This document shows positions 53,478 through 63,592 of a stretch of DNA of 64,000 nt, in pieces. A model generated the notes under the pieces. The model was not told the DNA's origin, searched no databases, and saw nothing but the letters and a program-made list of their open reading frames with translations. The position numbers and the translations under genes were made by a program. The stretch is from Burkholderiales bacterium PBB1 (GTDB lineage Bacteria > Pseudomonadota > Gammaproteobacteria > Burkholderiales > Burkholderiaceae_C). The DNA lies in contig NKIN01000004.1 of the NCBI GenBank assembly GCA_002255905.1, positions 124,001-188,000 of the forward strand, read 5' to 3'. Numbering within the stretch: position 1 is the first letter of the stretch; each line of letters starts with the position of its first letter.

Positions 53478-53496
53478 AATGCGAATCGATCTCACT
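53478..53496 (+). promoter_or_regulatory. Fur-box-like operator upstream of tonB
   Basis: AATGCGAATCGATCTCACT matches the betaproteobacterial Fur pattern AATGAGAATCATTCTCATT at 15 of 19 positions. It lies 123 bases before the tonB start, in an AT-richer stretch, and suggests iron repression of the tonB-exbBD gene run. Confidence 0.55.
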
Positions 53497-53618
53497 TGTG
53501 TTAGCCTTCATGTGTGCGCAGTGCCTCGCGGTGTCTCGTGGAGACCGGTGGTGCAGCCGCCATCGACTGTCCGTCGGCATGCGGACTGTTTGTCCTCGAT
53601 TCATTTTCACGCGCGCCC

Positions 53619-54407
53619 ATGGTCCGTTCCATCGCCTTGTCGTCTGCCGCTGTGGCCCGCATGCCTGGCCACGGCCTCGCGTCCGGGCGAGGCATCGGCG
53701 GGCTGGGCGGGCCGGCATTCGACCGCACCGCAGGGGCCTGGGACGACCTCACGCCACGTCAGCGCCGCAGTGTGGTGGCCGCGATGGTGCTGCTGCACGC
53801 GGGCGCGGCGGCATGGCTGGCGCTGCTGCCGGCGCACGCACCGCTGCCGGTGGTGCCACCCCACACGCTGAAGGTCGAGTGGCTCGCCGCGCCCGCGCCG
53901 GTGGTCGAGCCCGCTCGGCCGGTCGCGCCGACGCCGCTGCCCGCGAGGCCGACGCCGCCGCGGCCGGTGCTCGCGCCGCCCGAACGACTGGTCGCCGCGC
54001 CCGAGTCCGCAGCCCCCGCGGCGGTGGTCACGCCGCCGCCCGCACCGCTGCCGGTGGTCGACAGCCCCGCAGCGCCCCCCGAACCCGCGGCGCCACCGGC
54101 CCCGGCCAGCCCGGCCGCGCCCAAGACACTGCCACCGGAAGCGGTGCAGTACCTGCTGCCGCCGGCACCGGTGTATCCGAAGTGGTCGCTCCGCCAGGGC
54201 GAGTCGGGTCGGGTGCTGGTGAAGGTCTACGTGGACGAAGGCGGCATGCCGCGCTCGGTGCAGGTCGTCGAGTCATCCGGTCATCCGCGCCTTGACGAGG
54301 CGGCCCGCACGGCCGTCCAGGCCGCACGCTTCAAGCCCTATGCCGAAAACGGCCGCCACACCGCTGGCTGGGCCTTCGTTCCCCTCACTTTCGATCTGGA
54401 GAAATGA
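53619..54407 (+). CDS. tonB: TonB energy-transducing protein
   Basis: Carries proton-motive energy from ExbB/ExbD to outer-membrane receptors. 262 residues from the ATG at 53619. A cytoplasmic N-terminus of about 45 residues, one transmembrane helix (VVAAMVLLHAGAAAWLALL), a long Pro/Ala-rich periplasmic spacer (about 75-180) and the TonB C-terminal domain (YPKWSLRQGESGRVLVKVYV to TFDLEK). Stop overlaps exbB start by 4 bases (ATGA). Dedicated partner of the receptor at 61082-63415 by context. Confidence 0.94.
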   Translation: MVRSIALSSAAVARMPGHGLASGRGIGGLGGPAFDRTAGAWDDLTPRQRRSVVAAMVLLHAGAAAWLALLPAHAPLPVVPPHTLKVEWLAAPAPVVEPARPVAPTPLPARPTPPRPVLAPPERLVAAPESAAPAAVVTPPPAPLPVVDSPAAPPEPAAPPAPASPAAPKTLPPEAVQYLLPPAPVYPKWSLRQGESGRVLVKVYVDEGGMPRSVQVVESSGHPRLDEAARTAVQAARFKPYAENGRHTAGWAFVPLTFDLEK

Positions 54408-55276
54408 CCGTGACCCAAGAACTTGCTGTCGCGACCGCATCGGCGCCGCTGGCCACACTCCAGCCGCTCGGTTTCGGCCACTTCATGGCGCAGTCCGACG
54501 CCGTCGGGCAGACGCTGCTGGTGGTGTTGCTGGCGATGTCGGTGCTGACCTGGGCAGTGATCGCGCTGAAAGGCGTGGCCCAGACGCTGCAACGGCAGCG
54601 CAGTCGGCGCTTTCTGGATCGCTTCTGGAATGCCGCGTCGCTGCAGCAGGTCGAGGCCGACCTCGCCGCGCCAGCAACCGATGAAGGCCGCGACCCGTTC
54701 TCGCGCCTCACGCAGCAGGCACTGCAGGCCCGGGCGCACCACGCCCGGCATGGCACCTCGCGGCTCAGTGATGCGGGCAGCGCGGGCGAATTTGTCACGC
54801 GCACGCTGAAGAAGGCGCTCGACGAGGAAACGATGCGGCTCGAAAGCGGCCTGACGCTGCTGGCCACCGTGGGTGCCACCGCACCCTTCGTCGGGCTGTT
54901 CGGTACCGTCTGGGGCGTCTACCACGCGCTGGTGGCGATCGGCGCCAGCGCCGCCGACGGCCCCGGTTCGCTGGCCCAGGTGGCCGGCCCGGTGGGCGAG
55001 GCGTTGATCATGACCGGCCTCGGTCTGGCGGTCGCGATCCCGGCGGTGATGGCCTACAACGTCTACACCCGCCGCAACCGGGTCACGGCCTCTCGCCTCG
55101 ATGCCTTCGCCTACGAGCTGCATACCTTCGTCGCGATGGGCCAGCCCCTGGGCGGCGGCACGTTGCCGGCAGGGGCCGCCGCGCCGGCGGCGTCCGCAGT
55201 GCCCGCGGCCGCTGCCTCCGTGACCTTGACACCGCCCGCCACCGCCACGCGGCGTGCCTCGCCGATCGCTGCCTGA
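54404..55276 (+). CDS. exbB: Biopolymer transport protein ExbB
   Basis: Inner-membrane proton channel subunit of the TonB system. 290 residues with three helices (about 35-55, 145-168, 190-215). The MotA/TolQ/ExbB signature LLATVGATAPFVGLFGTVWG and EALIMTGLGLAVAIPAV are clear. An Ala/Thr-rich tail of about 45 residues is longer than usual. Coupled to tonB by an ATGA overlap. Confidence 0.95.
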   Translation: MTVTQELAVATASAPLATLQPLGFGHFMAQSDAVGQTLLVVLLAMSVLTWAVIALKGVAQTLQRQRSRRFLDRFWNAASLQQVEADLAAPATDEGRDPFSRLTQQALQARAHHARHGTSRLSDAGSAGEFVTRTLKKALDEETMRLESGLTLLATVGATAPFVGLFGTVWGVYHALVAIGASAADGPGSLAQVAGPVGEALIMTGLGLAVAIPAVMAYNVYTRRNRVTASRLDAFAYELHTFVAMGQPLGGGTLPAGAAAPAASAVPAAAASVTLTPPATATRRASPIAA

Positions 55277-55286
55277 GGACCACGCC

Positions 55287-55754
55287 ATGGCCTTCGCCTC
55301 GTTCGACAACAACCGCTCTGCCGGGCCGATGACCGACATCAACATGGTCCCGCTGATCGACGTGCTGCTGGTGCTGCTGGTGATCTTCATCGTCACCGCG
55401 CCGCTGCTGACGCATGCCGTCAAGCTCGATCTGCCCAAGGTCAGCTCGCAGCCGCACCTGCCCACGCCCGATGCGATCCAGCTCGCCATCGACGCCGAGG
55501 GCGGCCTGTTCTGGAATGGCGAAGCGCTCAGTCGCCAGCAGGCCGCCGAGCGCTTCGCTGTCGAGGCGCAGAAGCAGCCCCAGACCGAAGTGCACCTGCG
55601 GGCGGACGAGCACGTGGCCTATCGCCATGTTGCGCAGATGCTGGCCGATGCCTCGCACGCCGGCCTCACCAAGCTCGGCTTCGTCAGTGAGCCCGCCGGT
55701 GCAGCCGGCGCGCCGACCGATCCCGCCCTGGCCACTGCCACGTCGCGCCGATGA
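55287..55754 (+). CDS. exbD: Biopolymer transport protein ExbD
   Basis: 155 residues from the ATG at 55287. Single N-terminal transmembrane helix containing the proton-carrying Asp (VPLIDVLLVLLVIFIV), periplasmic domain after it. Ten bases after exbB. Its stop overlaps the start of the PepSY membrane protein (ATGA), which ties the energy-transducing genes to the redox genes that follow. Confidence 0.95.
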   Translation: MAFASFDNNRSAGPMTDINMVPLIDVLLVLLVIFIVTAPLLTHAVKLDLPKVSSQPHLPTPDAIQLAIDAEGGLFWNGEALSRQQAAERFAVEAQKQPQTEVHLRADEHVAYRHVAQMLADASHAGLTKLGFVSEPAGAAGAPTDPALATATSRR

Positions 55755-56413
55755 ACCACGGTGCGCCATCGGCGGCCACACATGGCCGCAGTGTCGGCAA
55801 GGGCCGCGCCTACTGGCTGAAGACGCTGCACCAGTGGCACTGGATCAGCGCAGCGACCTGCCTGATCGGCATGCTGCTGTTCAGCGCCACCGGCATCACG
55901 CTGAACCACGCCGCACAGATCGATGCCAACCCGCAGGTCACCCGCCAGACACTGCAACTGCCACCCGGACTGCAGCAGCACCTGGCCGCGAGCGCCCCGT
56001 CCGATGAGCGGCGCCCGGCGCCGTTGCAGGCCGAGCTGGCCGGCTGGCTGTCGGCGCAGCTCGCCGTCGAAGTCGAGGGTCGCGACGCCGAGTGGTCGGC
56101 CGACGAGGTCTATGTGTCGATGCCGCGTCCCGGTGGCGATGCCTGGCTGCGCATCGAACGCGAGACCGGTGCGGTCGAGTTCGAGCGCACCGACCGCGGC
56201 TGGGTGTCCTACCTGAACGACCTGCACAAGGGGCGCCACACCGGCGTGGCCTGGTCCTGGTTCATCGATGTGTTCGCGGTCGCGTGTCTGCTGTTCTCGG
56301 TCACCGGGCTGTTCATCCTGAAGTTGCATGCGGCCAACCGCCCGACCACCTGGCCGCTGCTCGCGCTCGGGCTCGTGATCCCGCTGCTGCTTGCCCTCCT
56401 GTTCATCCATTGA
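55751..56413 (+). CDS. PepSY-type membrane protein with candidate haem-ligating histidines
   Basis: 220 residues. Helix 1 about 31-50, a periplasmic part of about 110 residues with PepSY-like strands (DEVYVSMPRPGGDAWLRIE), helix 2 about 170-191 and helix 3 about 202-219. Histidines lie at helix ends (His27, His30, His53, His159, His163, His193), as in PepSY-associated membrane proteins thought to carry electrons across the membrane. PiuB-like proteins of this class occur with siderophore receptors. Start overlaps the exbD stop. Electron-transfer role is inferred. Confidence 0.85.
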   Translation: MNHGAPSAATHGRSVGKGRAYWLKTLHQWHWISAATCLIGMLLFSATGITLNHAAQIDANPQVTRQTLQLPPGLQQHLAASAPSDERRPAPLQAELAGWLSAQLAVEVEGRDAEWSADEVYVSMPRPGGDAWLRIERETGAVEFERTDRGWVSYLNDLHKGRHTGVAWSWFIDVFAVACLLFSVTGLFILKLHAANRPTTWPLLALGLVIPLLLALLFIH

Positions 56414-56426
56414 AGAAGGCCTCGAC

Positions 56427-56945
56427 ATGAACTTGCGTTATTCCGTCGCACTCGGCGCCGCGGTGTTCGGTGCCCCGCCCCTGCAGGCCGCCGATCTGTC
56501 CATCGGTGTGGAGATCCCGCGCCTGAGCGTGGCCGAGTACCACCGTCCGTACGTGTCGGTGTGGATCGCCCGGCCCGACCAGAGCGCCGCCTCGACCCTG
56601 GCCGTGTGGTTCGAGCAGAAGAAGCCGAACGCCGAAGGCACCAAGTGGTTGAAGGACATGCGCCAGTGGTGGCGCCGCAGCGGCCGCGACATGAAGGTGC
56701 CGGTCGACGGCGTCACCAGCGCGACACGCCCGGTCGGCAAGCACAAGATCGAGGTCGCCGACGGCAACGCCCCGCTGGGCAAGCTGCCCGCAGGCGACTA
56801 CCAGCTGATGGTCGAGGCCGCGCGCGAAGGCGGTGGCCGCGAGCTGCTGTCGATTCCGTTCCAGTGGCCGCCGAAAGCGGCGCAGCAACTCGCCGCACAA
56901 GGCCAGAGCGAGCTGGGCGAGATCAGCCTCGAGCTCAAGCCCTGA
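56427..56945 (+). CDS. DUF2271 periplasmic protein, candidate flavinylated electron carrier
   Basis: 172 residues from the ATG at 56427. Signal peptide ends near LQAAD. The mature domain has the pattern KWLKDMRQWWRRSGRD followed by VDGVTSATRPVGKH. Residues 94-100, DGVTSAT, fit the motif D-x-x-(S/T)-x-A-(S/T) at which ApbE attaches FMN in NqrC/RnfG-type proteins, with Thr100 as the acceptor. An apbE gene is two genes downstream. It would sit in the periplasm between the PepSY protein and the iron-siderophore. 13 bases after the PepSY gene. Confidence 0.85.
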   Translation: MNLRYSVALGAAVFGAPPLQAADLSIGVEIPRLSVAEYHRPYVSVWIARPDQSAASTLAVWFEQKKPNAEGTKWLKDMRQWWRRSGRDMKVPVDGVTSATRPVGKHKIEVADGNAPLGKLPAGDYQLMVEAAREGGGRELLSIPFQWPPKAAQQLAAQGQSELGEISLELKP

Positions 56946-56992: not shown

Positions 56993-57808
56993 ATGATTCT
57001 TTCCTCGTTCCAGCGCGTGCTGGCCACCACGCTCGCCCTCACGCTGGCCGCGCCGCTCGTGGAGGCACACAGCGCCTTCTTCGTGCCGTCGAGCACGGTG
57101 CTGTCCAAACCACAGTGGGTGACCATCGATGGCGGCGTTGGCACCGACATGTTCTATTTCAACCACGGGCCGCTGCGGCTCGATGGCCTGGTGGTCACGG
57201 CCCCCGACGGCACCGCGGTGACGCCCGAGAACCTGGTGGTCGGCAAGGTGCGCAGCGTGTTCGACCTGAACCTCACGCAGACCGGCACCTACCGCATCGC
57301 CACGGCGAACAGCGGCGTCACCGCGCGCTACAAGGACAAGGCCACCGGACAGAACAAGGGCTTCCGGGGCACGGCAGCGAACTTCGAGAAGGAGGTGCCG
57401 GCCGACGCCGAGGATCTGCAGGTCAATGAATCGGTGAGCCGTCTCGAGACCTTCGTCACCGTCGGCAGGCCGAGCGCATTCACGCCGACGGGCGTGGGGC
57501 TGGAGCTGATCGCCGTCACGCACCCGAACGACCTGTACAGCGGCGAGGAGGCGACCTTCGCGTTTGTGCTGGATGGCAAGCCCGCCGTCGGGCTCGAGGT
57601 CGAGGTCGTGCCGGGGGGCGTCCGCTACCGCGACAAGATCGGCGAGATCGCCCTGAAGACCGACGCGCAAGGCCGCGTCACGCTGAAGTGGCCGCAGCCC
57701 GGGCTCTATCGCCTGGAGGTCAACGCGAAGGATGGTCAGACCACGGTGAAGCAGGCCAGGGAACGCCGGCTCGGCTATGCGGTGGTGCTGGAAGTGCTGT
57801 CGCAGTAG
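56993..57808 (+). CDS. DUF4198 periplasmic protein
   Basis: 271 residues from the ATG at 56993, with an AGGAG ribosome-binding site. Signal peptide predicted to be cut at VEA-HSAFF, leaving His as first residue. The mature protein is built of beta-rich domains (FVPSSTVLSKPQWVTIDG, then PNDLYSGEEATFAFVLDGKP and LKWPQPGLYRLEV), as in the DUF4198 family, members of which are linked to metal uptake. Role in this operon unknown; a metal-binding or scaffolding part is plausible. Confidence 0.85.
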   Translation: MILSSFQRVLATTLALTLAAPLVEAHSAFFVPSSTVLSKPQWVTIDGGVGTDMFYFNHGPLRLDGLVVTAPDGTAVTPENLVVGKVRSVFDLNLTQTGTYRIATANSGVTARYKDKATGQNKGFRGTAANFEKEVPADAEDLQVNESVSRLETFVTVGRPSAFTPTGVGLELIAVTHPNDLYSGEEATFAFVLDGKPAVGLEVEVVPGGVRYRDKIGEIALKTDAQGRVTLKWPQPGLYRLEVNAKDGQTTVKQARERRLGYAVVLEVLSQ

Positions 57809-57853: not shown

Positions 57854-58915
57854 ATGACGCATCCTGCCGACGCTGCCGCATCGACAACCCGCTGGCGCTC
57901 CACGGCCCCGCTGCAGGTGGCACCCGTGAAGACCGTGGCGCCGGTGGTGAGCGAACTCGGCGGGCTGACGATGGGCACGCGCTGGAGCGTCAGGTTCTGG
58001 CACCCGATCGGCACGCTGTCGGCGCCGCACAGCGCGTTGCGTGCGGCGATCGAGTCTGCACTCGACACGGTGGTGCAGCAGATGAGTCCGTGGGCGCCCG
58101 ACTCCGACCTCAGCCGCTTCAATCGCGCTGCCGCAGGCCACTGGCAGACGCTGCCCGAGCCCTTCTTCAGCGTGCTGCGCTGCGCGCTGGATCTGGCGCG
58201 CGACAGCGGCGACGCCTACGACCCGACCGTCGGCCCGGTGGTCGACCTGTGGGGCTTCGGCCCGGCGCCCACGCGCGACACGGTGCCGCCCGCAGCCGAG
58301 ATTCAAGCGGCCCACGCCCGCGTCGGCTGGCAGCGTCTGGCCATCGACGTGCCGCAGCGGCGCGTGCGCCAGCCGGGAGGCAGCGCACTCGACCTGTCCT
58401 CGATCGCGAAGGGCCATGCCGTCGACGCGGTGGCGTCTGCCCTGCGTGCCCTGGGCTGCGCCAACGTGCTGGTCGAGGTGGGCGGCGAACTGCTGGGTTG
58501 CGGACGTCGGCCCGATGGTGCGCCCTGGCGGGTGGCTGTGAAGCTGCCCGGCTTCGCCATGACCGACACCGGTGCCGACATCGACGAGGCGCCCGGCCCG
58601 GTGCTGGCGCTTCCCGATCTCGCGGTTGCGACCTCGGGCGACGACTTTCGCCATTTCGTTGCCGATGGCGAACACTGCTCGCACACCATCGATCCGCGCA
58701 CCGGCCGGCCGATCCGGCATGCGCTGGCCTCGGTCACGGTGGTGCATCCGCAGTGCATGCAGGCCGATGCGTTGGCCACGGCGCTGCTGGTGCTGGGGCC
58801 CGAGGCAGGATGGGCCTACGCCCAGCGGCACCGGCTTGCAGCGCTCTTCATCCGCCGCGGCGCCGAGGGGCACGAGGCCCGCCCGACCGAGGCGTTCGAC
58901 GCGCTGCTGGCATGA
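57854..58915 (+). CDS. apbE: FAD:protein FMN transferase (ApbE)
   Basis: Transfers FMN from FAD onto a Thr/Ser of target proteins. 353 residues from the ATG at 57854. Conserved parts: GGLTMGTRWSVRFW, YDPTVGPVVDLWGFG, LDLSSIAKGHAVDAV, LVEVGGELLGCGRR and the C-terminal SHTIDPRTGRP with metal ligands. Unlike most ApbE proteins it shows no signal peptide or lipobox; an in-frame stop at 57806 rules out a longer N-terminus containing one. The adjacent DUF2271 protein is the natural target candidate. Confidence 0.93.
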   Translation: MTHPADAAASTTRWRSTAPLQVAPVKTVAPVVSELGGLTMGTRWSVRFWHPIGTLSAPHSALRAAIESALDTVVQQMSPWAPDSDLSRFNRAAAGHWQTLPEPFFSVLRCALDLARDSGDAYDPTVGPVVDLWGFGPAPTRDTVPPAAEIQAAHARVGWQRLAIDVPQRRVRQPGGSALDLSSIAKGHAVDAVASALRALGCANVLVEVGGELLGCGRRPDGAPWRVAVKLPGFAMTDTGADIDEAPGPVLALPDLAVATSGDDFRHFVADGEHCSHTIDPRTGRPIRHALASVTVVHPQCMQADALATALLVLGPEAGWAYAQRHRLAALFIRRGAEGHEARPTEAFDALLA

Positions 58916-58931: not shown

Positions 58932-60323
58932 ATGCCGGCGGACACGCTGCGCGAGGTCGCAGCGGGCCTCGTCGTGTTGTCCTACCTCGGCCTGTGCGCC
59001 GCCACCTGGCGGCACCACCGGGCCCGCCGCTCACAGGCCGCGCTTGCCAACGCTGCGTTGGCACCTGCTGCTGCCGCTGACGCGCCGCCGGTGCTGGTGC
59101 TGCATGCCAGCCAGACCGGCACCGCCGAGCAGCTCGCGTGGCAGGCTGCCCAGGCGCTGCACACCGCCGGCGTGCCCGCGCGGCTGTGCAGCCTGTCGCA
59201 GCTGCGGGCCGAGGATCTGCGCACCGCCGAGCGCGCACTCTTTGTCGTCAGCACCTACGGTGAGGGCGACCCGCCGGATGCGGCGGCCCCCTTCGTGCGG
59301 CGTGTCATGGCGGCGCAGCGCCCGCTGGCCCTGCACCACCTGCACTGCGGCGTGCTCGCGCTCGGCGACAGCAGCTACCGACACTACTGCGGCTACGGCC
59401 GCGCGCTCGACCGCTGGCTGCGGCACTGCGGCGCGCCCATGCTGTTCGAGCGCATCGAGGTCGACCAAGGCGACCCTGCCGCACTGCAGAAGTGGCAGCA
59501 CGAGGTCGCACGCATCGCTGGCATGAGCGACCTGCCAGAGGGGCTGGCAGCCGACCCGTTCGAGCCGTGGCGGCTGGTGGTGCGTCGGCACCTGAACCCG
59601 GGCAGTCAGGGCGGCCCGTGTTTTCACCTTGAATTCAAGCCGACGGCCGGCCGCTCGCTCGGCCGTTGGCAGTCGGGCGATCTGGTACAGCTGCTGCCCC
59701 CCGGCAATGCCTCACGGCCGCGCGAGTACTCGATCGCTTCGTTGCACGCCGATGGCCGCGTGCACCTGCTGGTGCGTCAGCAGCGCCATGCCGACGGCAC
59801 GCTGGGCGTGGCCTCGGGCTGGCTCACCGATGGGCTGGCGCTGGGTGGCGAGGTCGCCTTGCGTGTGCGAGCGCACCGCCACTTCCGGCTGGGCGACAAC
59901 GCACAGCGGCCGCTGATATTGATCGGCAATGGCACCGGCCTGGCCGGCCTGCGTGCCCATCTGAAAGCCCGCGCGGCAGCGGGCACGGGCGCAGGCCCCG
60001 CATGGCTGGTGTTCGGCGAGCGTCAGGCCGCGCACGATGCCTACTACCGCGACGAGATCGACACCTGGCTTGCCAGCGGCGTGCTCGAGCGAGTCGACCT
60101 GGTCTACTCGCGCGACACACCCGAATGTGGGTATGTCCAGGACGTGCTGCGCGAGCAGGCCGATCTGCTGCGTGCCTGGCTGGCGCGTGGTGCCGCGATT
60201 TATGTCTGCGGGAGCCGGGCCGGCATGGCCTCCGGCGTCGAGGCGGTGCTGATCGCCGCCTTAGGCCAGGACGGCGTCGACGCACTCATCGAGCAAGGTC
60301 GCCTGCGGCGGGATGTTTACTGA
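58932..60323 (+). CDS. Membrane-anchored flavodoxin/FAD-NADPH reductase (CysJ-like)
   Basis: 463 residues from the ATG at 58932. One N-terminal helix (about 8-24, then HRARR on the cytoplasmic side) anchors it. Flavodoxin domain about 45-190 (HASQTGTAEQLA, STYGEGDPPD, LALGDSSYRHYCGYG), FAD domain about 205-330 (RPREYSIAS, LGVASGWLTD), NADPH domain to the end (LIGNGTGLAG, YVCGSRAGMASGV). Same architecture as sulfite reductase flavoprotein, but no sulfite reductase gene is nearby. Likely to pass NADPH electrons to the PepSY protein; this is inference. It ends 1 base before the convergent piuC stop. Confidence 0.92.
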   Translation: MPADTLREVAAGLVVLSYLGLCAATWRHHRARRSQAALANAALAPAAAADAPPVLVLHASQTGTAEQLAWQAAQALHTAGVPARLCSLSQLRAEDLRTAERALFVVSTYGEGDPPDAAAPFVRRVMAAQRPLALHHLHCGVLALGDSSYRHYCGYGRALDRWLRHCGAPMLFERIEVDQGDPAALQKWQHEVARIAGMSDLPEGLAADPFEPWRLVVRRHLNPGSQGGPCFHLEFKPTAGRSLGRWQSGDLVQLLPPGNASRPREYSIASLHADGRVHLLVRQQRHADGTLGVASGWLTDGLALGGEVALRVRAHRHFRLGDNAQRPLILIGNGTGLAGLRAHLKARAAAGTGAGPAWLVFGERQAAHDAYYRDEIDTWLASGVLERVDLVYSRDTPECGYVQDVLREQADLLRAWLARGAAIYVCGSRAGMASGVEAVLIAALGQDGVDALIEQGRLRRDVY

Positions 60324-60324
60324 G

Positions 60325-61005
60325 TCAGACCTCGCCCCACTGACGCAGCAGGTTGTGATAGTGCCCGGTGAGGCTCAGCACCTCGTCGCATTCGCTCAGG
60401 CGCAGCCGCAGCTTCTGGATGGTCTGGTCGAGCTCGAACAGCAGTTGGCGCTGCGCGTCGTCGCGCACCATGCTTTGTGTCCAGAAGAAGGAACACACCC
60501 GCACACCGTCGGTCACCGGCTCGACGCGGTGCAGGCTGCTGGCGGGGTACAGGATCAGATCGCCCGCGGGCAGCTTCACCTCGTGGGTGCCGTAGGTGTC
60601 CACCACGACCAGCTCGCCGCCCGCATAGTCGTGCGGCTCGCTGAGGAACAGGGTGCACGACAGATCGGTGCGCAGCCGCAGGTTCGTGCCCGGCACCTGG
60701 CGCACCGCGCTGTCGACGTGCAGCCCGTAGTGTTCGCCGCCTTCGTAGCGGTTGAACAGCGGCGGCACGGTGCGCAGCGGCAGCGCGGCCGACACGAACA
60801 GCGGGTGTGCCAGCACGGCCGTCAGCACCATCTCGCCCAGCTCGCGCCCGAGTGGCGACAGCTCGGGCAGCTGCCGGTTGCGCTTCACCTGCGCACCTTG
60901 GCTGCCGACGGTGGCGCGGCCATCGACCCAGTCGGCCGTGTCCAGTCGCGAGCGGATGTCGGCCACGTGCTGCGGCGTCAGGACCTCGGGGATGTGCAGC
61001 ATCAT
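60325..61005 (-). CDS. piuC: Fe(II)/2-oxoglutarate hydroxylase PiuC
   Basis: 226 residues. Prolyl-4-hydroxylase-type dioxygenase with iron ligands HVD (YGLHVDSAV, His95 and Asp97) and a distal His in SSLHRVEPV, and the 2-oxoglutarate Arg in the following VRVCSFFW strand. PiuC genes stand beside TonB-dependent siderophore receptors and are iron-regulated; the substrate is not settled. Here it follows the receptor gene with a terminator-like hairpin in between, so expression may be attenuated relative to the receptor. Confidence 0.93.
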
Positions 61006-61081: not shown

Positions 61082-63415
61082 TCAGAAGGTCAGGTTCGCG
61101 GTCAGCAAGGCCGAGCGCGGCACGCCTGGGAAGTAACGCGAACGTCCATTGTTCACCGAGGCGATGTAGTCCTTGTTGAACAGGTTGTTCACGTTCAGCT
61201 GCAGGCTCAGCGACTTGTTGACGTCGTAGTTCACCAGCGCATCGGCCACCCAGTAGCCCGGAATGCGGTAGATGCCGCTCAAGGTCGAGGTGTCGACATT
61301 GCTCGACGTCACCGAGTTGCCGACACGCCGCACGCCCGCGCCCAGCGTCACCCCCATCGGCAACTGGTAGGTGGCCCACGAGGTGAAGGTGAACTCGGGC
61401 GAAAACTGGATCGCCCCGCCCTGGGTGGCGACGGCCGCGCGGGTGATCTTCGTCTTGACGTAGGCGAGCCCTGCGCTCAGGTGCAGTGCGTCGGTGAGCT
61501 GCCCCACCACGCTGACCTCGGCGCCCTTGACACGGCGTGCGCCGACCTGGGTGTAGGTGTTCGGGTCGACCGGGTCTTGCACCAGCTCGTTCGTGTTCCT
61601 GCTGTGGAACAAGGCGCCGGCGACGGCCAGGCGGCCGCCGTTGAATTCCCACTTGGTGCCGAGTTCGATGTTGCGGCCCTTCTGGGGCGCGAGGTCGGGC
61701 CGGTTGGCGCTGTTGATGGCCGTGCTCAACGCGAAGTTCGCGCCGCCCGGGGGCTGCTCGGAGTTGGCCGTCGAGACATAAACGCTGCCATTCGGCGCGG
61801 GCTTGTACAGCGCGCCGAGCTTCCAGCTCTTGAGGTTGCCCGACGACTCCGGTGCGGCATGCACCAGCGTGCCCACCGGCAGCGTGGGGTAGGTGGTGAG
61901 CGTGGACACCACGGCCGAACTCGAGTCGGTGTTGTAGTGCTCGAACCGCAAGCCACCCGTGAGCTGCCACTGTTCACCGACCTTCAGCGTGTCGAACAGG
62001 TACAGCGCCGATGAGGTGGTGTCGCCGTTGCTGAAGGTGCCATTGCGCACCGGCGTCTGGAACACGTCGCTGGTGCTCGGGTTGTAGAGGTTGGCGTTCG
62101 CCTGCGTCACGCCGGTCGGCAGGCCGAAACCGGGCGTCTTCTGCTTTTCGTGGATGAACTCCACTCCTCCGCTGAGCGAGTGCCTGAAGGTGCCGCTGCC
62201 GATCTCGGCGGTGAGGTTGGTCTGGTTGGTCAGGATCTCGTTGGTCTGGTCCCGGCCCTGACGCGAGCGGCTCACGGTGTAGCCCGCGAAGTTGCTGCTG
62301 GGAGACGCCAGCGTGCCGATGCCGGCCAGGGTGTTGACGCCGGTGAGCGTGCTTTCCAGTGTCAGGCGGCCGTAGCGCGAGGTGTTGCGCAGCGTGACGC
62401 CGGGCGCCAGGTCGTGTTCGATGCGGGCGGTGAACATGTTGATGTTCACGTCCTCGTCGTCCGACTTCGCACCGTAGAAGTTCTTCGAGTTCACCTTCGG
62501 CGGCTTGATGCCATTCGGCGTGAGCACCGCGTTGTAGAAGCTGCGCAGGCCCACCGTGGGCACGCCGCCGTCGGGCCGGTTGTTCTGCTGGCTGTGCAGC
62601 AGATAGAAGTACACGCGGGTCGGTGTGTTCAGGCCGAAGGCGATCGACGGCGCGAAGCCGTAGCTCTTGCGCTCGACTTCATGGCGGCCGGGCACGCCGT
62701 AGTCCTGTGCCACGAGGTTCAGCCGAATGGCACTGCCGGGAATGCCGATGTCGATCGGGCGGTTCAGGTCGGCGGTGGCGCGCTTGCGGCTGTGGGTGCC
62801 GAGGCTGAGGCTGGCCGTGTTGTAGCCGTCGAGGAACGGCACCTTGGTCAGCAGGTTCACATAGCCCGACGACGTGCCGCGGCCGTTGTCAGCGCCCGAG
62901 GGTCCTTTGACGACTTCGACCTGTTCGATGTTGAACACATCGCGCGAGATCGAACCCAGGTCGCGGATGCCGTCGACGAAGATGCTGCCCTGCGTGTCGA
63001 AGCCGCGCATGAAGATCGAGTCGCCGCTGGAGGTGTTGCCGTTCTCGCCGGCCAGCATCGTCACGCCCGGCGTGTTGCGCAGCGCCTCGGCCAGTGTCGT
63101 CGCGCCTTGCTCGCGCAGCAGCTCCTTCTTGATCACGGTGATGGTCTGCGGCGTGTCCACCAGCGGCTGGGTGAACTTCGGCGACGACATGGCCTCGGCC
63201 TTGTAAGGCACCTCGGCTGCCGACTTGACCTTGACCTCGGGCAGCACCGCGTTTCGCGCCGGCGCCGAGGCTGCCGCCGCCGGGGGCGTGGCTTGCTGCG
63301 CCTGCGCTGCAACGGGCAGGGCCAGGGCCGCCACCGCAGCGGCAGACTGGGTCAAATGAAAGGAACGAAAGTGACGAGAGGGACGGGCGTGCGGGCGGGA
63401 CTGGATGTGAGCCAT
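61082..63415 (-). CDS. TonB-dependent siderophore receptor (Fiu/PiuA-like)
   Basis: Outer-membrane receptor, 777 residues. Signal peptide ends near AQAQQ; then an Ala/Pro-rich stretch, plug domain about 60-210 (PQTITVIKKELLREQGATTL, LRNTPGVTM, SIFMRGFD, VEVVKGPSG) and a 22-strand barrel ending with the terminal Phe of LLTANLTF. The plug sequence fits catecholate-type receptors such as Fiu. A Fur box and a TTGACA -35 element precede it. tonB-exbBD and reductive genes nearby complete the uptake system. Confidence 0.95.
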   Translation of the reverse strand: MAHIQSRPHARPSRHFRSFHLTQSAAAVAALALPVAAQAQQATPPAAAASAPARNAVLPEVKVKSAAEVPYKAEAMSSPKFTQPLVDTPQTITVIKKELLREQGATTLAEALRNTPGVTMLAGENGNTSSGDSIFMRGFDTQGSIFVDGIRDLGSISRDVFNIEQVEVVKGPSGADNGRGTSSGYVNLLTKVPFLDGYNTASLSLGTHSRKRATADLNRPIDIGIPGSAIRLNLVAQDYGVPGRHEVERKSYGFAPSIAFGLNTPTRVYFYLLHSQQNNRPDGGVPTVGLRSFYNAVLTPNGIKPPKVNSKNFYGAKSDDEDVNINMFTARIEHDLAPGVTLRNTSRYGRLTLESTLTGVNTLAGIGTLASPSSNFAGYTVSRSRQGRDQTNEILTNQTNLTAEIGSGTFRHSLSGGVEFIHEKQKTPGFGLPTGVTQANANLYNPSTSDVFQTPVRNGTFSNGDTTSSALYLFDTLKVGEQWQLTGGLRFEHYNTDSSSAVVSTLTTYPTLPVGTLVHAAPESSGNLKSWKLGALYKPAPNGSVYVSTANSEQPPGGANFALSTAINSANRPDLAPQKGRNIELGTKWEFNGGRLAVAGALFHSRNTNELVQDPVDPNTYTQVGARRVKGAEVSVVGQLTDALHLSAGLAYVKTKITRAAVATQGGAIQFSPEFTFTSWATYQLPMGVTLGAGVRRVGNSVTSSNVDTSTLSGIYRIPGYWVADALVNYDVNKSLSLQLNVNNLFNKDYIASVNNGRSRYFPGVPRSALLTANLTF

Positions 63416-63573: not shown

Positions 63574-63592
63574 GATGATAATCATTCCCATT
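63574..63592 (-). promoter_or_regulatory. Fur box of the siderophore receptor promoter
   Basis: AATGGGAATGATTATCATC on the minus strand, very close to the classical Fur consensus (central GAATGATTATCAT). It lies directly downstream of a -35 hexamer, so bound Fur would cover the -10 region. Confidence 0.85.

Follow-up and report, generated by a model that had tools for sequence, protein, structure and literature searches.

The window, a stretch of 64,000 nucleotides from Burkholderiales bacterium PBB1, carries an operon that runs from tonB to a flavodoxin-reductase gene, and convergent to it lie the genes of a PiuC-type dioxygenase and a TonB-dependent receptor (Table 1). A PF16357 protein is found here in a flavinylation cluster together with DUF2271 and DUF4198, which places the locus among the PepSY-like flavinylation systems. 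The exact order PepSY-DUF2271-DUF4198-ApbE-flavodoxin/reductase recurs in 115 of about 197 loci (some loci represent the same genomes twice), and further variants of it occur.

Table 1. Genes and sequence features of the locus, with positions in the window
Feature	Position	Strand	Basis
Fur-box-like site AATGCGAATCGATCTCACT	53478..53496	+	14/18 of AATGAGAATNATTCTCATT; operon head
tonB (start codon uncertain)	53514..54407	+	Pfam TonB_C 2.5e-19
exbB	54404..55276	+	Pfam MotA_ExbB 8e-32
exbD	55254..55754	+	Pfam ExbD 3e-29
PepSY_TM_like_2 membrane protein, probable haem-b conduit	55751..56413	+	Pfam PF16357 1.3e-86
DUF2271, predicted covalent-FMN carrier, Sec signal peptide	56427..56945	+	PF10029 9.2e-50
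DGVTSAT flavinylation motif, acceptor Thr100 (predicted)	56706..56726	+	motif match, conservation
DUF4198 exported protein	56993..57808	+	Pfam PF10670 7e-51
leaderless ApbE (FAD:protein FMN transferase)	57854..58915	+	Pfam ApbE 4.8e-83
CysJ-like flavodoxin + NAD(P)H reductase with one TM, probable electron donor on the cytosolic side	58932..60323	+	Flavodoxin_1 5e-27, NAD_binding_1 5e-10
PiuC/YbiX-type Fe(II)/2OG dioxygenase	60325..61005	-	Pfam PKHD_C 3.5e-20, 2OG-FeII_Oxy_3
TonB-dependent receptor, Fiu/PiuA-like by context	61082..63415	-	Pfam TonB_dep_Rec 5e-57, Plug
Fur-box-like site GATGATAATCATTCCCATT (+ strand letters)	63574..63592	-	15/18; upstream of receptor gene

Translation from ATG 56427 gives a DUF2271 protein of 172 amino acids, in which DGVTSAT forms residues 94-100, just as an earlier note on this DNA had read it. 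The protein starts with a Sec-type signal peptide, MNLRYSVALGAAVFGAPPLQAADL, without a twin-arginine pattern, so that its presumed export is borne out, and the gene order DUF2271, DUF4198, apbE agrees with a position two genes before apbE. DUF2271 is its sole Pfam match (profile positions 2-135 of 136). An FMN_bind-type protein was rejected, since the Pfam scan returned no PF04205 domain, and no FMN_bind protein was found in the window's own genome either. The likeness to NqrC and RnfG drawn in the earlier note therefore holds for the type of motif and for a Thr-linked FMN attached by ApbE, but not for the protein family. In the core of the motif, TSAT, Ser takes the place of Gly, a deviation from the strict published form [S/T]GA[S/T]. 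The protein combines a conserved Ser/Thr acceptor with an apbE gene two genes on, the two features by which a DUF2271 flavinylation substrate is recognised.

DUF2271 as a flavin carrier has been known since 2021 and is settled in principle; the window adds a member. The survey to which the earlier note refers exists and goes further than the note: Meheust et al. (2021; PMC8238504) found DUF2271 beside orphan apbE genes, described the motif [S/T]GA[S/T] and obtained UV fluorescence on SDS-PAGE when the Amantichitinum ursilacus DUF2271 was co-expressed with its cognate ApbE, while a Thr-to-Ala exchange abolished flavinylation. The same study delimited PepSY-like clusters with DUF2271 (2833), DUF4198 (1500) and ApbE and proposed iron reduction for them (PMC8238504). 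The window protein shares motif, position of the motif and operon type with this flavinylated homologue (PMC8238504) and has an apbE gene nearby, which supports the assignment of DGVTSAT as an ApbE-type flavinylation motif.

Motif conservation was assessed in 187 unique DUF2271 domains, taken from 120 gene neighbourhoods (order, family and phylum samples) and 80 named loci. The acceptor column holds Thr in 175 and Ser in 12 domains, thus Ser/Thr in all 187, and the -3 position of the motif is Ser/Thr in 185 of 187; no other column of the domain exceeds 85% Ser/Thr. Among the 168 members of the main group, Gly precedes the Ala or Pro in 122 cases and Ser does so in 30, so the strict [S/T]GA[S/T] is narrower than the family. 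Ser in TSAT is therefore an ordinary variant, and the acceptor hydroxyl is invariant. Pro stands in place of the motif Ala in 27 of these 168. The Asp is nearly invariant in the main group, to which the window protein belongs (165/168), but the 11 aligned group B paralogues always end in GAS and keep the Asp in 5 cases only. An Asp that is invariant throughout the family, as the earlier note had suggested checking along with the Thr, is thus false, and the Asp is not essential throughout DUF2271, whereas the hydroxyl residue stood without exception.

Group B (L129, L132-L139, L092-L097, L176-L179) is a shorter DUF2271 paralogue with the motif G[VI][ST]GAS, in which the Asp is often replaced by N, Q or A; its neighbours are a PepSY-flavodoxin-reductase fusion and an ApbE that lacks a signal peptide. 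Fusions of ApbE and DUF2271 were also seen (L088-L091, L170, L172, L174, L175). Most of them carry D-x-[VM]-[ST]-[KR]-P-T, and they mostly begin with an N-terminal signal peptide.

The pattern D..[ST].A[ST] arises by chance in 0.66% of 20,000 shuffled versions of the DUF2271 protein, and it is absent from all 10 other window genes checked. The view that DGVTSAT matches by coincidence, or belongs to the architecture of the fold and is no flavinylation site, gains something from this rate and from an AlphaFold2 model (51 sequences; mean pLDDT 76.8), a beta-sandwich with one helix in which the motif region, residues 91-100, is a low-confidence loop (pLDDT about 55). With such a loop the model gives no independent support for the site, and it neither supports nor contradicts flavinylation. 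Foldseek returned only weak C2-domain-like beta-sandwich matches (best E 2e-3, TM 0.3), and a search for solved relatives by sequence gave chance matches only. The conservation of the acceptor, with the -3 column of the same motif as the only other conserved Ser/Thr column, removes the doubt over a chance match, and the apbE gene in the operon and the published Thr mutant of the homologue (PMC8238504) count against it as well. We consider a fortuitous or purely structural motif highly improbable and flavinylation of Thr100, the predicted FMN acceptor, very likely.

The two best Fur-box-like matches of the 64 kb both belong to this locus: the site at 63574 ranks first and that at 53478 second; the latter agrees with an E. 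coli-style consensus at only 12 of 19 positions. Together with TonB-ExbB-ExbD, the flavodoxin-NADPH reductase, PiuC and a Fiu-type receptor, these predicted Fur boxes point to a putative role in reductive iron uptake. From this gene content we infer both the iron role and the following electron path. ApbE would move FMN from FAD onto Thr100 as a phosphoester, turning the DUF2271 protein into a small exported electron carrier. NAD(P)H electrons would enter through the membrane-anchored flavodoxin/FAD reductase, pass to the putatively haem-binding PepSY membrane protein and from its haem to the FMN on periplasmic DUF2271. The latter may then reduce ferric iron or a ferri-siderophore that the Fiu/PiuA-type receptor brings in together with PiuC and TonB-ExbB-ExbD, whereby iron would be released and taken up.

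Among 173 relatives of the PepSY protein His30 and His159 are conserved at 99-100% and the C-terminal His220 at 93%, a pattern that would fit a haem conduit. His220 is the last residue of PepSY_TM_like_2 (window 56408-56410) and a possible haem ligand. A comparison with the PDB by sequence and profile found no solved structure for this protein; the haem sites of FoxB are summarised elsewhere (PMC11334425).

In Caulobacter, Fur targets include CCNA_03155-03159, the equivalent of the PepSY operon in the window, and the PiuA/PiuC-type pair cciT/cciO; transposon insertions in either lower fitness in EDTA (PMC12004947). A flavinylated DUF2271 could also serve another task, with a different metal or a periplasmic redox partner, since the literature read gives no measured electron acceptor for any DUF2271 system. 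We regard this as unlikely, because TonB-ExbB-ExbD, the receptor, PiuC and two Fur boxes share one locus and because of the Fur regulation and EDTA phenotype in Caulobacter (PMC12004947). The window locus ties the DUF2271 carrier to a PiuC/receptor pair and to Fur boxes and thereby strengthens the role in reductive iron uptake. For Thr100 flavinylation within an iron-linked redox system we estimate a probability of about 0.88.

The window ApbE has a full ApbE domain (PF02424) with 5 Cys and matches PDB 5mgy over residues 42-360 (1.5e-65); H274, D277 and D302 are invariant among 40 relatives. Neither a lipoprotein signal nor another export signal, as is typical of ApbEs with exported substrates, was found in it. 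The start is ATG 57854, with TTG 57830 as alternative, and no signal-peptide-like stretch is present in the ~54 residues between the preceding stop and the domain. A missed upstream start was therefore rejected, the whole open stretch being covered by these residues. The N-terminal extension is variable among relatives and holds no conserved targeting element. With a home-made rule in place of SignalP (false positives about 5%, sensitivity 82-98%) a signal peptide was called in 5 of 163 unfused cluster ApbEs, compared to 175 of 178 DUF4198 and 150 of 182 DUF2271 proteins, on a background of 28 of 510 internal ApbE stretches. This rule replaced a looser one, which had called 31 of 171 ApbEs, mostly fusions and proline-broken segments. 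A twin-arginine pattern was found in none of 174 DUF2271 proteins, so Sec is the likely export route, and Tat export of a folded, flavinylated DUF2271 was rejected on the same count.

A quick maximum-likelihood tree, built with 140 ApbEs, places those of DUF2271 operons in one clade with a support of 100, in which 92 of 97 are leaderless. The signal-peptide-bearing members (Luteibacter, Dokdonella, G901 and G192) are nested inside this leaderless clade, with three changes on the tree, which argues that export was regained and that periplasmic flavinylation is workable too. Cysteine content follows the predicted compartment. Leaderless ApbEs have 3.67 Cys on average and secreted ones 0.72 (p 2e-13, a statistic that ignores kinship), the five ApbEs with regained export have 0 or 1 each (mean 0.6), and 182 DUF2271 and 178 DUF4198 sequences have none at all. 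This avoidance of Cys provides an independent argument for leaderless ApbEs working in the cytosol.

We checked 60 genomes for their ApbE complement. In 25 near-complete ones the leaderless operon ApbE is the single copy (in one of them, G375, the gene read in two pieces), and since no FMN_bind or DUF3570 protein was found in these 25, the exported DUF2271 is the only recognised ApbE substrate there. Two ApbEs are encoded in the window's own genome, one with DUF2271 and the other with a DUF3570 gene, and neither has a signal peptide. Action of another, secreted ApbE was rejected for the 25 genomes and for the window's own. All five genomes with an apbE-less DUF2271 operon (G177, G190, G257, G276, G282) encode a lipoprotein ApbE elsewhere, the gene being split in G276.

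The DUF3570 gene belongs to a second flavinylation locus of the same genome (L260:4019-6265; G000 contig C8, about 97,500-99,800), where a DUF3570 protein with two SGAT motifs adjoins its own ApbE, also without a signal peptide. A further ApbE clade, the third and separate from the others, was noted in related genomes (L261-L266); its members have no recognisable signal peptide. The ApbE gene of L264 is followed by that of a lipoprotein-like protein of ~1009 amino acids, which has two CxxCH and whose middle domain is of the hydrazine-synthase-alpha type (PF18582). The protein showed no GAT-type motif, and L261 and L266 encode a similar protein of like size at the same position.

A leaderless ApbE raises the question in which compartment, and at which stage of export, FMN is attached to DUF2271. 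In the textbook order, export comes first and flavinylation second. Because the window ApbE lacks an export signal, flavinylation in the cytosol is the most likely course: FMN would be joined to the DUF2271 preprotein there, with FAD in ample supply, and Sec would then export the flavinylated chain. We think it rather probable that in a large proteobacterial PepSY/DUF2271 clade a cytosolic ApbE flavinylates the DUF2271 preprotein before it crosses by Sec. Periplasmic flavinylation would on this account have been restored at least twice, in Luteibacter/Dokdonella and in one Burkholderiales lineage. Since the published co-expression used truncated proteins (PMC8238504), DUF2271 and ApbE were both synthesised in the cytosol of E. 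coli, and this compartment is thus permissive for flavinylation. Against a cytosolic step speaks that the A. ursilacus ApbE construct was worded 'signal peptide-truncated' (PMC8238504), according to which this ApbE would be an exported one.

Alternatively, DUF2271 may be flavinylated in the periplasm, either by a leaderless ApbE exported along an unrecognised route or by another secreted ApbE. In the cases studied to date, exported substrates are modified by ApbEs that are exported as well, and for Salmonella ApbE the periplasmic location is essential (review PMC12052999); the five cluster ApbEs with regained signal peptides and the use of a lipoprotein ApbE in trans by genomes without operon apbE point the same way. 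We nevertheless hold periplasmic flavinylation for doubtful, as the 25 genomes and the window's own have leaderless ApbEs only, as the high Cys content of these enzymes fits a reducing compartment and as their variable N-terminal extension offers no conserved targeting element. In the 2025 review, leaderless ApbEs are mentioned only in connection with substrates that are cytosolic or fused, and the way in which ApbE is supplied with FAD is called obscure (PMC12052999). The pairing of a leaderless ApbE with an exported DUF2271 is a point not raised in the literature searched, and the question of compartment is directly relevant to the supply of FAD for flavinylation outside the cytosol. If true, cytosolic flavinylation would need no FAD export for the DUF2271 route and would reverse the textbook order.

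Of the known systems, the A. ursilacus DUF2271 (WP_053936890.1) shares Pfam family, ApbE as modifying enzyme and a Thr acceptor with the window protein. Its accession number ends in 890 and that of its ApbE in 888, which suggests a spacing like that in the window, with a single intervening gene. The two differ in that the window motif is TSAT as opposed to the consensus [S/T]GA[S/T] of the A. ursilacus paper, and in that the window ApbE has no signal peptide whereas the A. ursilacus construct was described as freed of one. NqrC, RnfG and NosR (FMN_bind, PF04205) are likewise extracytosolic electron carriers with a Thr-linked FMN attached by ApbE, as predicted for DUF2271, at a motif of the D-x-x-[ST]-x-A-T type, but they differ in fold and family, DUF2271 being modelled as a beta-sandwich. 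The cytosolic ApbE of Klebsiella resembles the window enzyme in lacking a signal peptide; its substrate, a fumarate reductase, is however cytosolic, while the window DUF2271 is exported by Sec. FoxB and VciB, iron reductases of the PepSY type, resemble the window locus in having a PepSY_TM-type membrane protein thought to pass electrons to periplasmic ferric iron, but the window protein is of the short PepSY_TM_like_2 type. In Caulobacter crescentus, CCNA_03155-03159 comprises PepSY, DUF2271, DUF4198 and a flavin reductase and shares Fur control (predicted in the window) and a role in iron homeostasis; the window locus also includes tonB-exbBD and converges on the PiuC/receptor pair, whereas Caulobacter has that pair elsewhere (CCNA_00027/00028).
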